Shown in pieces: positions 53,157 through 58,506 of a stretch of DNA of 64,000 nucleotides; the first letter of the stretch is position 1, and each line of letters begins with the position of its first letter. The position numbers and the translations under genes are program-made. The notes under the pieces are model-generated. The model was not told the origin of the DNA. It saw only the letters and a program-made list of their open reading frames with translations, and ran no database searches. This DNA comes from Flavobacterium sp. ENC (GTDB lineage: Bacteria; Bacteroidota; Bacteroidia; Flavobacteriales; Flavobacteriaceae). Location of the stretch: NCBI RefSeq assembly GCF_020991415.1, contig NZ_JAJMOY010000009.1, positions 1 through 64,000 on the forward strand, given 5' to 3'.

Positions 53157-54434
53157 TTAAAACTTATGCTCCTTTTTACTAATAAGCAGTAAAGAAAACA
53201 AAGAAATGCAGGCCGCTATAGTCAGATAGAAGCCAACATAGGTTAAACTATAAGTACTGGCCAGCCAAATGGCAATCATTGGAGCAAAGGCTGCACCAAG
53301 GATTCCTGCCAGATTAAACGTTAATGAAGCTCCGGAATAACGAACATTGGTAGGGAACAATTCGGATAAGAAAGTTCCTAAAGGTCCGTAAGTGAATCCC
53401 ATCAACGACATTCCTAAACAGACAAAGAAAGTTACCATAAATATACTTCCTGAATTTAAAAAATGAGAGAAGAAAAAACCAAAAACAGCAATAGCAATAG
53501 TAGTTATAATTAATATTTTGCGACGTCCAATTTTATCTGCAACAACTGCTGAAACAGGAATAAAAGCAGCAAAAAACAACACTGAAAACATCTGAATCAA
53601 AAGGAAATCCCTTTTGGCATACCCCAGATCCGAAGTGGCCCAGCTCAGGGTAAAAACCGTCATCAGGTAAAACACCAGAAAGGTGGTAATCGCTGCAAAT
53701 GTTCCAAAAATCAATTGGTTTTTATACGACTTGACCAACGTAAGAAAAGGAACTTTTACCTCTTCGTGTTCGTTTTTTGAATTTTCAAAAGACGGTGTTT
53801 CCGTAATTTTAGTCCTAATATAAAATCCGACTACCACCAGAAGAGAACTGGCAATAAACGGAATTCTCCAGCCATAATTCATGAAATCCTCACTCGTCAT
53901 GGAATCCGTTAACAACAGGAAGGTACCTCCCGAAAGCAATAAGCCGATGGGTGCTCCCAATTGTGGAAACATCCCGTACCAGGCCCTTTTATGCGGAGGT
54001 GCATTTTCAATCGCGAGCAAAACAGCGCCTCCCCACTCACCTCCTAAACCAACACCCTGACCAAATCGGCACAACATCAATAGTAAAGGAGCTGCTACGC
54101 CAATACTGGCATAACCGGGTAAAAATCCAATCGTTACAGTTGAAATTCCCATCGTTAACAAAGCCGCAACCAGCGTAAACTTACGTCCGATTTTATCGCC
54201 GTAATGCCCGAAAAATGCAGAACCCAAAGGGCGCGACAAAAAGGCTATCGAAAAAGTCGCCAGTGATTCCAAAGTAGCCATGGTTTTATCGGAACCCGGA
54301 AAAAACAATTGCGGAAAGACCAATACCGCAGCATTGGCATAAATATAAAAGTCAAAAAATTCGATGGTGGTACCAATCAAACTGCCAAAAAGAACATGTC
54401 GAAGCGAGTTCTTCTGATTAGGGGTATTTTTCAT
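53157..54434 (-). CDS. MFS transporter, metabolite:H+ symporter family
   Basis: Inner-membrane transporter of 425 residues with about twelve helices. The opening SLIGTTIEFFDFYIYANAA, the LSRPLGSAFFGHYGDKIGRK loop and RFGQGVGLGGEWGGAVLL are hallmarks of the MHS group (ProP, ShiA and KgtP relatives), which import organic acids or osmolytes with protons. The substrate cannot be deduced. It lies downstream of the RtcB operon on the same strand but is separated by a terminator at 54586-54610. Confidence 0.92.
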   Translation of the reverse strand: MKNTPNQKNSLRHVLFGSLIGTTIEFFDFYIYANAAVLVFPQLFFPGSDKTMATLESLATFSIAFLSRPLGSAFFGHYGDKIGRKFTLVAALLTMGISTVTIGFLPGYASIGVAAPLLLMLCRFGQGVGLGGEWGGAVLLAIENAPPHKRAWYGMFPQLGAPIGLLLSGGTFLLLTDSMTSEDFMNYGWRIPFIASSLLVVVGFYIRTKITETPSFENSKNEHEEVKVPFLTLVKSYKNQLIFGTFAAITTFLVFYLMTVFTLSWATSDLGYAKRDFLLIQMFSVLFFAAFIPVSAVVADKIGRRKILIITTIAIAVFGFFFSHFLNSGSIFMVTFFVCLGMSLMGFTYGPLGTFLSELFPTNVRYSGASLTFNLAGILGAAFAPMIAIWLASTYSLTYVGFYLTIAACISLFSLLLISKKEHKF

Positions 54435-54616: not shown

Positions 54617-55150
54617 TTACTTATTCCTTTTATCCGCTGATTTTCCTTTTTTAGATCCGGTTTTTTTCGATTTTTTATTCATTTTTTTGTGCAATCGCTT
54701 TTCGGTTTCTTCCATAAGATAATCGTATTCATTGCTTAACGTTTCAAGTCTTGCTTCTTTTAGCGCTTTCAATGCCTTTTTAAAATCTTTCCGGCTTTCT
54801 AAAAGCATCACTTTTTTAAGAAGAATCTCCACTTTGTTAATGCCTTTAATCGTCAAAGCAAAATCGATAAGCCTTGTCGCTTCCGCATAATCTTCATTCA
54901 GGATTAAAGTATTGATGTAATACGAATATACTTCTATAGCATTGATATTAATCGAAATGGCCTGCTGAAAATATTCCTTGGCTTCTTCATATTTCAATAG
55001 CTGATCGGCCTGAACACGGCCATAAAGGCATAATGCCATTGTATTTTTGTCGTCATAAGACAAAGCGTAATCCAGTGATTCTATGGTTTCGACCAACGAA
55101 TACGGATAATTGTCCAAGGCTTCAAAAATGTATTTATCTACTGTTTTCAT
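54617..55150 (-). CDS. TPR-like helical protein of unknown function
   Basis: Cytoplasmic 177-residue protein. Residues about 12-145 form tetratricopeptide-like helix pairs (SLDYALSYDDKNTMALCLYGR; YEEAKEYFQQAISINI; DYAEATRLIDFALTI; DFKKALKALKEA). The last 25 residues are extremely basic (KKMNKKSKKTGSKKGKSADK), suggesting nucleic-acid or ribosome contact. It starts 36 bases after the prfH stop codon and ends at the next terminator, so it may belong to the RNA-repair unit. No function is known to me. Confidence 0.83.
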   Translation of the reverse strand: MKTVDKYIFEALDNYPYSLVETIESLDYALSYDDKNTMALCLYGRVQADQLLKYEEAKEYFQQAISININAIEVYSYYINTLILNEDYAEATRLIDFALTIKGINKVEILLKKVMLLESRKDFKKALKALKEARLETLSNEYDYLMEETEKRLHKKMNKKSKKTGSKKGKSADKRNK

Positions 55151-55186: not shown

Positions 55187-55876
55187 TTATTCCCTGTCGA
55201 AATAATCTTCTCTTTTTAATTTTTGTCTTTCCTGTTTGTATTTTTTTTCCTGTTTTTGTTTTTTAAAGTCTGAACCCTGAAAAATCCGTACCGGATTGCC
55301 TCTCTGAATCTGCAGCTGATTCATCCATTGTGCCTGAAATTCAGCTTTAAACTGCTTTACGGTTTCTTCTTTAAATTTCTGTAGTAACCTTTCAGTGGCC
55401 AGTTTTTTGTTCTGGTGCTGTGAACGCAAATCCATAGAAACCACGCTGATTCCGGTTGGAAAATGCGTCGCCCTTACTGCAGAACTCACCTTATTGACAT
55501 GCTGCCCTCCGGCTCCGGAACTTCGCATCGCCTGATAGTGAATATCCTTTTCCGAAATTTCGGTTGCCGCAGATTTTTCTATTTCGAAAATGCCGATAAA
55601 CCAATTTTTCCTTTTATGAAATTTCCTGAACTGACTTTGCCCAATCCACTGAATGGTGCCGATCCATGAGTTCATGAACGGATCCAGCGTATCACTTTCG
55701 AGTAAAATCGTAGCGGTTTCTACTGTTCCGTTCTCAATTCCGGTTTCCCGTTGAAGCATTGTTGTTTTTATATTATTTTCTTTTGCTTCTTCTATAAAGG
55801 TTTTTAAAACCTGGGCCACAACCCAGCTGCATTCCGCCGGGCCGCGACCTGATGTTATTTGAATTATTTTTTCCAT
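55187..55876 (-). CDS. prfH: Release factor-like protein PrfH
   Basis: A 229-residue class I release-factor homologue. It has the catalytic loop [18 protein letters not shown] with the GGQ tripeptide at residues 123-125 but lacks the full codon-recognition domain 2 of RF1/RF2. [17 protein letters not shown] follows, as in the RF family, and the C-terminal tail is Lys-rich. PrfH proteins are typically encoded with RtcB and are thought to release peptides from ribosomes whose decoding centre has been cut, so that RtcB can rejoin the 16S rRNA. Here it begins 11 bases after rtcB, in agreement with that role. Confidence 0.95.
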
Positions 55877-55887
55877 TTCTTACTAAT

Positions 55888-57279
55888 TTAGCGGTCCATT
55901 CTAACGATCTTCGGCGTGAATGTACCGAGTACATCAACGAGTTCATTTTGGTTGGCCATTACTTTATTGATGTCCTTATATGCCATTGGAGCTTCATCTA
56001 TATTTCCTCCAATCAAAGTGACATCGTTTGCTTTGAGCACTTTATTAATTTCACTTTGGGTGAACGATTCTTTGCACTTTCTACGCGAGAAAAGCCTTCC
56101 GGCGCCGTGCGATGCTGAGTTCAAACTCTCCGCATTTCCTTTTCCCTTCACAATAAATCCCGGAGCCGTCATGGAACCCGGAATAATACCCAGTTCACCA
56201 ACGTTCGCAGGAGTCGCTCCTTTGCGATGTACAATGGCTTCCTTGCCGTTTACAGTCTCTTTCCATGCAAAATTGTGATGATTTTCAATGGTCACCACCA
56301 CTCGTTTTCCAACCGCTTTTGCCATTCGGCGGTGAATATCATCGTGACAGGCTTTTGCATAATCGCCGGCTAAATTCATCGCCAGCCAGTATTCCTGACC
56401 GTCATGCGTATTCAGATCCAGCCAGGCCAAATGCTGTACATTTTTAGGTAACGGACATTGTTTTGTCGCCAGATACGTATAATGTTTTGCAATATTGGCA
56501 CCCAATCCTCTTGAACCGCTGTGTGACAGCACCGCAAAATATTCCCCAGCCCCAATTTTCCATTCGTTAAGCGGATTGGTGATTTTTGCAATCCCAAATT
56601 CCACAAAATGATTGCCTCCGCCGGAAGTCCCAAGCTGTTTGTAGGCTTTACCCAAAAGATTTTTCAAAAGCGGAATATCCTGAAATTCACTCCGGCTGAA
56701 CAATTCATGATCTGCTTTTATGGCGTGGGTCTCATACATTCCGAATTTGGTATGGTCTTTTAAAATCGCCTGCAGCTGATGCTCTTTTCCTTTGAAAAAT
56801 GAAGCCGGAATGTCAAAAATGGACAAACTCATGCGGCATCCGATATCAACACCAACTCCGTACGGAATTACGGCATTGTCTGTGGCGAGCACACCGCCAA
56901 TCGGCAGTCCGTAACCGGAGTGCGCGTCAGGCATTAAAGCGCCTGCAACTGAAATTGGTAATTTTAAAGCGTCATACAACTGGTACTTTGCCTGTTCATC
57001 AATTTCATTTTCTCCGAATATCGAAAACGGTGCGCGAGTGTTGTTAAGCTGATGCATGCGTACCTGTACCGGATTTACCAGTCCTTCCGCGACTTTCCCC
57101 CAGGTTCCATGCCCCGTAAATTTTTCCGGAAACAATAAAACTTCCTTTGCTTCGGTTAATATGCTCTCTTTTTTTTCTCTTTTTCTGTATCTGTTGATCT
57201 GCCCTAAAGCAATATTGATACTGTTATTCTTTGGAAAGCCTATTTTAATAAGGTCCTTTCCGGATAATTTATTTCCCAT
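55888..57279 (-). CDS. rtcB: RNA-splicing ligase RtcB (PrfH-associated type)
   Basis: GTP- and Mn2+-dependent RNA ligase of 463 residues that joins 3'-phosphate or cyclic-phosphate ends to 5'-OH ends. Visible family blocks are DAHSGYGLPIGGVLATD, the metal-binding Cys148 in GVDIGCRMS, LGTSGGGNHFVEFG, LSHSGSRGLG, and SASHGAGRLFSRRK with His391 in the block that carries the guanylylated histidine. The linkage to prfH marks it as the rescue-associated form, aimed at rRNA rather than tRNA splicing. Its ATG overlaps the stop of the upstream 258-residue gene (TAATG), so the two are translationally coupled. Confidence 0.95.
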   Translation of the reverse strand: MGNKLSGKDLIKIGFPKNNSINIALGQINRYRKREKKESILTEAKEVLLFPEKFTGHGTWGKVAEGLVNPVQVRMHQLNNTRAPFSIFGENEIDEQAKYQLYDALKLPISVAGALMPDAHSGYGLPIGGVLATDNAVIPYGVGVDIGCRMSLSIFDIPASFFKGKEHQLQAILKDHTKFGMYETHAIKADHELFSRSEFQDIPLLKNLLGKAYKQLGTSGGGNHFVEFGIAKITNPLNEWKIGAGEYFAVLSHSGSRGLGANIAKHYTYLATKQCPLPKNVQHLAWLDLNTHDGQEYWLAMNLAGDYAKACHDDIHRRMAKAVGKRVVVTIENHHNFAWKETVNGKEAIVHRKGATPANVGELGIIPGSMTAPGFIVKGKGNAESLNSASHGAGRLFSRRKCKESFTQSEINKVLKANDVTLIGGNIDEAPMAYKDINKVMANQNELVDVLGTFTPKIVRMDR

Positions 57280-58055
57280 TAGGTATATTTTTCTTCTAAA
57301 TACTGTTCGTATATCGTATTCAGATTGTTATGATTTATTTGATTGCTATTTTTTAGCTTTTCCAGGCTATAATAATAGCTGGCGTCTCTGTTACGTGTTT
57401 TATAAATCTTGTATCCCAGATACCGGTTTTGTATGTAATTTTCTATCCGCCTATTTTCACTTTCCAATACGGCATCTACCGCTTTTTTATGGGTAATGAT
57501 ATTGGGCTCAATTTTAAATACAAATCTCCAGGACTCTGTAAATTCATAATAGGTCTTAAAACAACGCCATCGGTCCGACCATTTTTCGATTCGTGTAAAG
57601 CAGGATTTTTCCTTGTCAGTCAATCCGGGTTTATTCGCATTCCATTCACTGACACTAATTTTCGCCAGAAATTGCTCCCTTGGATGGTCTGTCTTTTTTC
57701 CAGATTGTTTTTTCCGATTGGCAAATGTTTTTTGATTTGAAAATTGGAAAGTGTTTATTTTTTCCAATACATTCACATAAAACATCGCCTCCGCTGAGTG
57801 CAAAACATCTTTTCGAACTACAAAAAAACGAACCCAGCCTTTTTGATAAGGTTCTTCCAATTCAATCAAAGGCAACTCTTTAATTGCCAGATAAATTGCG
57901 TGCTTTCGTTTTGCTAATTGAACAAGATGTTTTTCAAAATCCCCTTTCACCAATCTTTTTTTGCGTCTTTTATTCTTTAGACGACTACTTTCAAAGTAAT
58001 CGTCGAAAAGAGAATTGTCCATTAAAAAAAAATTAAATGAATTCTGACCCAACAT
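57279..58055 (-). CDS. Uncharacterised protein coupled to RtcB
   Basis: A soluble 258-residue protein with no signal peptide or membrane helix; I recognise no domain. A basic segment (KNKRRKKRLVKGD, about 27-39) is followed by an alpha/beta region with VRFFVVRKDV, a second basic stretch (NRKKQSGKKTDH, about 113-124), a Trp/Tyr-rich core (EKWSDRWRCFKTYYEFTESW, about 155-174) and a C-terminal helical part (about 190-258). The overall character suggests RNA binding. It is first in the operon and overlaps rtcB by one base. An ATG at 58022 (MDNSLFDDYF) is an equally plausible start. Confidence 0.8.
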   Translation of the reverse strand: MLGQNSFNFFLMDNSLFDDYFESSRLKNKRRKKRLVKGDFEKHLVQLAKRKHAIYLAIKELPLIELEEPYQKGWVRFFVVRKDVLHSAEAMFYVNVLEKINTFQFSNQKTFANRKKQSGKKTDHPREQFLAKISVSEWNANKPGLTDKEKSCFTRIEKWSDRWRCFKTYYEFTESWRFVFKIEPNIITHKKAVDAVLESENRRIENYIQNRYLGYKIYKTRNRDASYYYSLEKLKNSNQINHNNLNTIYEQYLEEKYT

Positions 58056-58138
58056 TTAAAAATGGAGGGCAAAACATTTTATCTTAAACAGATAAATTAA
58101 GTTCGTGATCGGGAATTTCTGAAGTGTCTAGAATAAAA

Positions 58139-58173
58139 AAAAGCCCGAAAGTTATTTTCCTTCGGGCTTTTTT
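58139..58173 (-). terminator. Strong intrinsic terminator upstream of the RtcB operon
   Basis: AAGCCCGAA pairs with TTCGGGCTT around an 11-base loop. On the minus strand it is followed by eight T residues and on the plus strand by six. No plus-strand gene needs it. It lies 84 bases before the first gene of the RtcB operon and after the small ORF at 58194-58280, which is a leader-attenuator layout. Confidence 0.85.
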
Positions 58174-58193
58174 CTATATCTAAAATTGATTTG

Positions 58194-58280
58194 CTAGGAT
58201 TGAGAAAAGCCACGAAGACACATGCCAACAGAATCTGATCCTGATGCGATGTTTTGAGAGGTAAAGTTTAGTACAAACAT
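58194..58280 (-). CDS. Possible 28-codon leader peptide upstream of the RtcB operon
   Basis: A short ORF on the minus strand runs from ATG at 58280 to TAG at 58194. The peptide begins MFVLNFTSQN and ends CLRGFSQS. It stops 20 bases before the strong terminator at 58139-58173. The nine bases just before its ATG (ACGAAGACA, minus strand) are perfectly complementary to TGTCTTCGT near its end, so the transcript can form a long-range stem that may hide the start. It may be a true leader peptide, or the ORF may be incidental within a structured RNA. Confidence 0.45.
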   Translation of the reverse strand: MFVLNFTSQNIASGSDSVGMCLRGFSQS

Positions 58281-58289
58281 TGTCTTCGT
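58212..58289 (-). ncRNA. Candidate structured leader RNA of the RtcB operon
   Basis: The perfect nine-base inverted repeat at 58212-58220 and 58281-58289 encloses 60 bases, including nearly all of the small ORF. A promoter-like TTTG, 16 bases, TAATTTG arrangement lies upstream on the minus strand near 58340-58370 (one base short of the usual -7 box). With the terminator this defines a possible transcript of about 200 bases reading toward the RtcB operon. Confidence 0.45.
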
Positions 58290-58506
58290 TGTTAATAATT
58301 AATGATTTATTTTTCTGAGGCAAATTTTGTGAAATATTTTCCTAATAAACAAATTATTTTTGAAATATTTTTCAAAACCACCGAAACATATTGATTTACA
58401 GTTATTTATATTCAAAAATAAAATTCAGGTCATAAGCAATCGTTAAAACCAATTTTAACTGCATATTTTGCTTAAATTTACAGCTATCAAAAATAAACCC
58501 AAAATT

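Follow-up and report, generated by a model that had tools for sequence, protein, structure and literature searches.

Leader-dependent control of an RtcB-like/PrfH gene pair has been described in Pseudomonas aeruginosa, where the leader ORF PA5471.1 precedes armZ (PA5471, RtcB-like) and PA5470 (prfH); complete translation of the leader results in termination at a 3:4 hairpin, while stalling, deletion of the leader or an amber codon results in expression (PMC12057347, PMC13041342). The system is induced by ribosome-targeting antibiotics (PMC12057347, PMC13041342), and deletion or the amber codon raises ArmZ (PMC13041342). A review grades the attenuation mechanism as proposed and in need of confirmation. 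Ribosomes on an antibiotic-responsive leader ORF also control msrD (PMC10314930). In Flavobacterium psychrophilum leader-peptide attenuation is reported at amino acid operons (PMC9723704); rtcb is not mentioned in the main text of that paper, whose supplement was not covered. Burroughs and Aravind described RFH-RtcB operons that include TPR and charged accessory genes (PMC6514570), and RtcB2-PrfH shields Escherichia coli against colicin E3 (PMC9223846).

Leader control of msrD depends on drug-specific arrest, and the leaders of the trp, his and thr operons follow a 1:2, 2:3, 3:4 pairing logic. In E. coli rtcBA is a stress-controlled RNA repair operon, switched on by the protein activator RtcR together with sigma-54.

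Here we analyse a window of 64,000 nucleotides from Flavobacterium sp. ENC (contig NZ_JAJMOY010000009.1, positions 1 to 64,000). From the sequence alone we consider it highly probable that the element upstream of its orf258-rtcB-prfH-TPR operon is a translation-sensing transcription attenuator; expression measurements, mapped transcript ends and ribosome profiling are all lacking, and the sensing step itself remains an inference. New is the attenuator on the Bacteroidota rtcB-prfH operon, whereas leader attenuation on an RtcB-like/PrfH pair is already known from Pseudomonas. A literature search, which saw its sources in part and did not extend to subscription journals or bioRxiv, found no report of such a leader in Bacteroidota.

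Layout of the locus

Promoter-like boxes, a 28-codon ORF and a strong terminator follow one another on the minus strand ahead of orf258-rtcB-prfH-TPR, with bshC divergent (Table 1). The first-pass annotation had proposed a translation-coupled attenuation layout here, made of the 28-codon ORF, a perfect nine-base inverted repeat between the bases before its ATG and bases near its end, a strong terminator 20 bases after its stop and the operon 84 bases further on. The ORF (58280-58194) is indeed present in the ORF list, with the predicted peptide MFVLNFTSQNIASGSDSVGMCLRGFSQS, and the perfect repeat is found at 58281-58289 and 58212-58220; because 15/2000 mononucleotide shuffles reach nine bases, the repeat alone is modest evidence. 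The minus-strand fold of 58130-58300 has an energy of -46.2 kcal/mol (z -5.86; 0/200 shuffles equally low), in line with the strong terminator claimed. Its stem (58133-58149 with 58161-58177, T tracts flanking both sides) begins about 17 bases past the leader stop codon instead of 20. A consensus terminator scan did not list this terminator at 58133-58177. The first-gene ORF can be counted from 58055, but a start at 58022 is likelier, as the alignments with most homologues begin only near residue 10.

The elements within the annotated span of 58056-58290 are real, but conservation reaches further, from the promoter-like box (about 58353-58321) to the small hairpin near 58078-58096. The boxes read TTTG at 58353-58350 and AAAATTTG at 58328-58321 (minus; the transcription start is unmapped), and the small hairpin has compensatory changes in the genus alignment, seen by eye and without statistics. 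While the attenuator layout proposed in the annotation is real, its key element, the 2:3 antiterminator, was overlooked. In the window it pairs CUUCG-u-GGCUUUU with AAAAGCC-CGAAG at -16.7 kcal/mol, a duplex matched by 15/2000 shuffles.

Table 1. Features of the leader region and of the operon in the window
Feature	Positions	Strand	Basis
Promoter-like boxes of the leader transcript, Bacteroidota sigma-A type	58321..58353	-	30-sequence alignment, motif counts
Region 1, ACGAAGACA, abuts leader start codon, partner of region 2	58281..58289	-	inverted repeat, 1:2 covariation
Leader ORF, 28 codons, C-terminal LRGFSQS	58194..58280	-	ORF list, kept frame
Region 2, TGTCTTCGTGGCTTTTCT, final codons of leader, pairs alternatively with regions 1 and 3	58203..58220	-	covariation
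Region 3, AGAAAAAAGCCCGAAGG, 5' arm of terminator and 3' arm of antiterminator (2:3)	58159..58175	-	duplex energy, covariation
Region 4, CTTTCGGGCTTTTTTTT, 3' arm of terminator and U tract	58135..58151	-	fold, covariation
ATTCTAGACACTTC box directly past U tract	58121..58134	-	near-invariant within genus alignment
Region 5, TTCCCGA, potential partner of region 4 once read-through occurs	58109..58115	-	conserved downstream; 4:5 covariation
Small hairpin TTTATCT-n5-AGATAAA preceding first gene	58078..58096	-	genus alignment, by eye
orf258, uncharacterised first gene	57279..58055	-	start 58055 or likelier 58022
rtcB, RNA ligase	55888..57279	-	Pfam PF01139, E 1.8e-81
prfH, peptide chain release factor H	55187..55876	-	NCBIfam TIGR03072, 237.9 bits vs cut-off 166.65
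TPR-like protein gene	54617..55150	-	weak TPR matches below gathering cut-offs

In the window prfH adjoins rtcB, which meets the criterion for a PrfH-RtcB ribosome repair operon. Since rtcB scores under the cut-off of TIGR03073 (release_rtcB; 135.5 vs 271.8 bits), we file it as a PrfH-linked RtcB (PF01139) and not under that family. For the product of orf258 Pfam gave nothing over cut-off and NCBIfam did not match at all; with its predicted structure (pLDDT 78, pTM 0.52) Foldseek gave no hit at an E of 0.001 or better, and the best Z of 5.5 with VIA-align 2 is inside the usual noise. In some relatives the slot of orf258 holds a distant homologue or a PcfJ-like protein, and in many there is no gene between leader and rtcB. 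Homologues of the TPR-like gene occur in 80 fetched loci, counting two copies of the window, and the gene is probably the last of the operon. About 180 bases past it, on the same strand, lies a major-facilitator transporter gene (53157-54434; PF07690, PF00083).

The promoter consensus of Bacteroidota is TAnnTTTG (PMC9723704), and the window box, AAnnTTTG, is a single base away from it. Upstream of the leader ORF TAnnTTTG occurs in 19/38 loci and nAnnTTTGC in 30/38 (1.2 and 0.5 in shuffled sequence); 6/38 have no A..TTTG box within the stretch scanned. In the 80 nt past the U tract, the only part scanned there, the same motifs occur in 0/38 and 1/38 loci (shuffled 1.5 and 0.9). An operon promoter between 58056 and 58138 would have spoken against the annotated layout; in the window neither TAnnTTTG nor nAnnTTTG is present there. 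For a promoter upstream of the leader with read-through into the operon there is motif evidence only, as RNA ends are unmapped.

Conservation of the leader and its linkage to rtcB

A blastn survey of 150 genomes of the genus with a 281-base query (E 0.001) gave matches in 64. In 44 of them the match counts as long, with 108 or more aligned bases; the others are short and mainly cover the terminator. An rtcB of the same clade (at least 73% identity, one of them a fragment) is found in exactly those 44 genomes, and in 44/44 it lies on the same contig and strand as the element, 47-1272 nt away. Alongside the paralogous rtcB (about 53% identity) no long match was found in the 150 genomes.

The linkage is also observed beyond the genus. 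An rtcB at E 1e-60 or better is present in 39/397 genomes of the family (40 hits), and all hits except the window were fetched, giving 39 loci. The leader is on the same strand in 27/27 of those whose rtcB is at least 73% identical, including L076 and L077, which had weak model scores (E 0.15 and 0.047) and were accepted via ORF and regions. In 22 of these 27 prfH lies within the fetched stretch, and in L074 and L094 it follows further on, as their named copies L155 and L140 demonstrate. A phylum-wide draw of 395 genomes, from which 20 loci were fetched, added the leader in 8/8 loci of a second family (rtcB 62-64%, prfH present) and in L120-L122 of the first family; L111-L118 have no full-length match to the leader model. 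Among the best 80 matches to named records, 59 have prfH behind rtcB, two of them short of upstream DNA, and the leader is present in 55 of the 57 testable loci; in L145, L160 and L176 its regions and not the model revealed it, the ORF of L156 is cut down to 17 codons, L169 carries an insert of about 100 nt preceding region 3, and in L163 no leader was found. Genera with the leader among these best 80 matches include Flavobacterium, Polaribacter, Lutibacter, Tenacibaculum, Aquimarina, Zobellia, Myroides, Chryseobacterium, Epilithonimonas, Kaistella, Halpernia and Sphingobacterium (two species). The locus is present in the laboratory strains F. hydatis DSM 2063 and F. pectinovorum DSM 6368. The named set overlaps the other genomes, therefore the counts must not be summed.

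Covariance model matches in 137/397 family genomes were set aside as mostly bare terminators (shorter partial matches were not checked singly), and L041, L046, L050, L053 and L054 were dropped as terminators behind other genes. One record titled Limnohabitans sp. MAG20 (L165) holds an rtcB 84% identical to that of the window, with the leader and an orf258 homologue; as its name belongs to a different phylum, this is probably a binning or naming error.

Conservation of the ORF and the stem in close relatives, on which the annotated layout depended, is found: in 30/30 genus loci available as sequence, out of the 44, the ORF is intact (26 to 28 codons, one GTG start), preceded by region 1 and ending in region 2, and the layout extends to other families. 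Indels within the ORF of the genus loci are of three or six bases. Across the 27 family loci region 2 is spaced 51, 54, 57, 60 or 63 nt from the ATG, always a multiple of three, while the two alternative frames are open in just 7 and 9 of them; by contrast, the AAG of region 1 is 5, 6, 7 or 8 nt away from the ATG, and the spacing between the leader stop and region 3 varies from 22 to 39 nt. Among the best 80 named matches the frame is kept in 55/56 loci (the exception is L150, with region 2 out of frame), with the other frames open in 11 and 26, and 56/57 leader loci have an ORF of 20-30 codons. The stop codon is 21 nt past the CTT of region 2 in 21/27 family loci and in 43/56 loci of that named set.

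The peptide is almost wholly different between genera, whereas the frame is conserved. The synonymous-rate signal that the annotation had expected is weak: pN/pS of the leader is 0.55, equalled by 34/200 column shuffles, which indicates weak peptide selection, and we rejected it as stand-alone proof of coding. We read the ORF as translated, with the product itself not being the point; translation was not measured. A hairpin in the middle of the ORF (P2) is suggestive only, with a mean z of -1.63 in a codon-shuffle test (29/38 loci below -1) and 4383/5000 permutations in an arm test whose arm split lay outside the hairpin.

Leaders are also found on other rtcB operons. Operons without prfH, with rtcB at about 66% identity, combine rtcB with a PcfJ-like gene before it and a TPR-like one. 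By eye, a leader ORF with both 2:3 and 3:4 precedes the PcfJ-like gene in L082, L083, L084, L119 (and L172), L170, L173 and L175; in L084 the 2:3 pairing joins ACUUGGGUUUU with AAAACCCGAGU. Neither region 1 nor 1:2 was seen by eye in the leaders of this clade, L085 has no leader of this type by eye, and the sequence of L081 is cut. In L172, L173 and L175 a second terminator-like hairpin lies further downstream.

We also searched without the model for an ORF with antiterminator and terminator. A first finder was discarded, having missed L141, L145, L148, L155, L156, L160, L163 and L169 among the 57 prfH-linked loci and marked 10/21 prfH-less ones, and its counts are unused; the thresholds of the stricter version were chosen after a first look at the results. 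With prfH-linked rtcB, the stricter version marked 25/35 upstream regions, 1/35 on the opposite strand and 0/35 downstream. With prfH-less rtcB of other families, it marked 8/24 upstream, none on the opposite strand and 1/23 downstream, and it found none in 7 remoter rtcB paralogues. The prfH-less group includes a common leader (TYR...FS) in L114, L115, L199 and L201, with 2:3 near -21 kcal/mol and 171-187 nt before rtcB, and different leaders with antiterminator and terminator in L194 and L202; these six lie 171-549 nt before rtcB. The hit in L200 is weak, and GC-rich repeats may have produced the one in L204. From this exploratory search it seems that further rtcB genes of Bacteroidota are likewise preceded by leader switches, unrelated to the one in the window. 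Upstream of rtcB in L111, L112 and L113 are repeated tRNA-like pieces, T-arm-like before D-arm-like, as if circularly permuted, for which neither ARAGORN nor Rfam at gathering scores gave anything.

Alternative pairings and the proposed switch

As the genus terminator arms hardly vary, the genus alignment yields no covariation. We compared duplex energies of cognate and non-cognate arms among 35 loci (the three near-duplicates L120-L122 dropped) with 5000 permutations, uncorrected for relatedness. Pairings 1:2, 2:3, 3:4 and 4:5 are all stronger when cognate, each with 0/5000 permutations, against 3535, 743 and 1379 of 5000 for the control pairings 3:5, 2:5 and 1:5; in a first run with 27 loci the controls 1:4 and 1:3 gave 203 and 730 of 5000. 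Compensating arms are seen directly: CTGAAG with CTTCAG (L067, L068, L098), ACCGAAG with CTTCGGG (L071, L072, L097) and AAAGC with GCTTT (L066, L077), and where region 2 has GGTTT or GACTT, regions 3 and 4 have the matching changes.

Folding with simulated ribosome occupancy (38 loci, 28 degrees, transcript end after region 3) gave on average 2.1 expected 2:3 pairs with a ribosome at the stop codon, 13.2 with one at the start codon and 12.5 with none, and in 38/38 loci 2:3 was lower with the ribosome at the stop than with it stalled at the start. With 2:3 reduced by the stop-codon ribosome, termination is to be expected after completed translation and read-through after a stall. Without a ribosome, 2:3 exceeds 1:2 at equilibrium in 36/38 loci (mean expected pairs 12.5 vs 1.1), with 1:2 dominant only in L074 and L080, and the gain in 2:3 from a start-stalled ribosome is small. 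Consequently, an untranslated OFF state either needs folding kinetics or does not exist. Of the criteria of an attenuator, the locus shows an ORF over the switching region, mutually exclusive 2:3 and 3:4, and an anti-antiterminator 1:2, while its promoter and read-through rest on motifs alone. The layout claimed by the annotation is supported by conservation, covariation and the lack of promoter motifs beyond chance in the 80 nt past the terminator. We suggest the following sequence of events, in which termination and read-through in the cell are inferred.

Step 1: RNA polymerase would initiate upstream of 58300 (minus) and transcribe the leader ORF. The 1:2 pairing is probably a kinetic brake, holding region 2 until region 3 emerges, a role that is likewise inferred.

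Step 2: A ribosome that reaches the stop codon would mask region 2, so that the 3:4 terminator forms and transcription ends (OFF).

Step 3: An early stall, for example at the start codon over region 1, would leave region 2 free to form the 2:3 antiterminator, and orf258-rtcB-prfH-TPR would be transcribed (ON). After read-through region 4 can pair with region 5, which is made past the decision point and may lock the read-through form.

The signal read would be the completion of translation, with the peptide sequence hardly mattering. What the switch does without translation is uncertain: the equilibrium folds point to ON, but 1:2, formed first, may keep it OFF. The rise of ArmZ upon deletion of PA5471.1 or with the amber codon fits an ON state.

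The strong terminator and the promoter motif of its own upstream could also belong to a free-standing small RNA of about 150 nt that ends at the terminator, the operon being transcribed from a separate promoter, and Rfam likenesses to terminator-bearing small RNAs and leaders point weakly the same way, none above the gathering score. This is very unlikely: the element immediately precedes this same operon and shares its strand, its ORF frame is kept in register with region 2, promoter motifs are not above chance in the 80 nt past the terminator, and 2:3 and 4:5 covary, which is of no clear use to a small RNA. Similarly slim is the chance that the leader responds to a protein or metabolite, as a riboswitch or through an RNA-binding protein (RtcB or PrfH themselves, for instance), with the ORF incidental. 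In its favour is the ATTCTAGACACTTC box, which is near-invariant in the genus yet has no place in the attenuator model; however, the other genera inspected do not show the box in this form, and the middle of the RNA varies freely among genera while the frame is kept. An Rfam identity was rejected as well: the likenesses are sub-threshold and driven by the terminator, and no family scored above gathering in the window or in six loci.

That the switch acts on leader translation or mRNA stability and not on termination we regard as highly improbable. The pairing 1:2 conceals the start of the leader, the read-through RNA contains 4:5 as well as the small hairpin, and the U tracts of L076, L145 and L148 are weak or interrupted, all of which would fit; but a U tract stands behind the 3:4 stem in nearly all loci inspected, and regions 2, 3 and 4 covary jointly. 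Scarcely credible is amino-acid-specific attenuation as in trp or his leaders, for although the 1-2-3-4 architecture is identical and the terminator part resembles Rfam Thr_leader and His_leader below the gathering score, no single-residue run or regulatory codon run exists in the leader peptides examined (genus, family and named loci), peptide composition differs among genera, and the operon is not biosynthetic. We retain attenuation that senses whether leader translation is completed.

Meaning of the leader and comparison with known systems

The operon is thought to rescue and repair damaged ribosomes; with such an attenuator damaged or poisoned ribosomes would induce their own repair. The conserved attenuator thereby names an inducing signal, still inferred, for PrfH-RtcB repair, where it has been largely open so far: failed translation of a short leader. 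It also offers a simple reporter for identifying the inducing damage or drug. A wider reading, which we hold as possible but doubtful, is that the leader is a dedicated sensor of ribosome damage and that such switches evolved repeatedly on rtcB operons. Ribosomes with a nicked decoding centre would still initiate but freeze at the leader start codon over region 1, inducing the ligase and the release factor, and the separate origins would be the prfH-linked form, the PcfJ-rtcB form without region 1, the unrelated leaders at prfH-less rtcB and PA5471.1. If this is true, RNA repair is commonly under the control of failed translation.

Among the known systems, the E. coli RtcR-rtcBA system is likewise stress-controlled RNA repair, but works through a protein activator and sigma-54. 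The trp, his and thr leaders share the 1:2, 2:3, 3:4 logic with the rtcB leader, which has no regulatory codon run and precedes a different operon. Unlike msrD with its drug-specific arrest, the rtcB leader has a peptide that varies among genera. PA5471.1 resembles it in layout and logic only, as a leader before an RtcB-like and PrfH pair (the leader sequences were not compared). Pseudomonas belongs to another phylum, the operon studied here has in addition a TPR-like gene and either orf258 or a PcfJ-like gene, and ArmZ is described as an efflux pump anti-repressor, while no such role is known for the Flavobacterium operon. Together with PA5471.1, the Flavobacterium leader suggests that two phyla reached the same control over the same gene pair.
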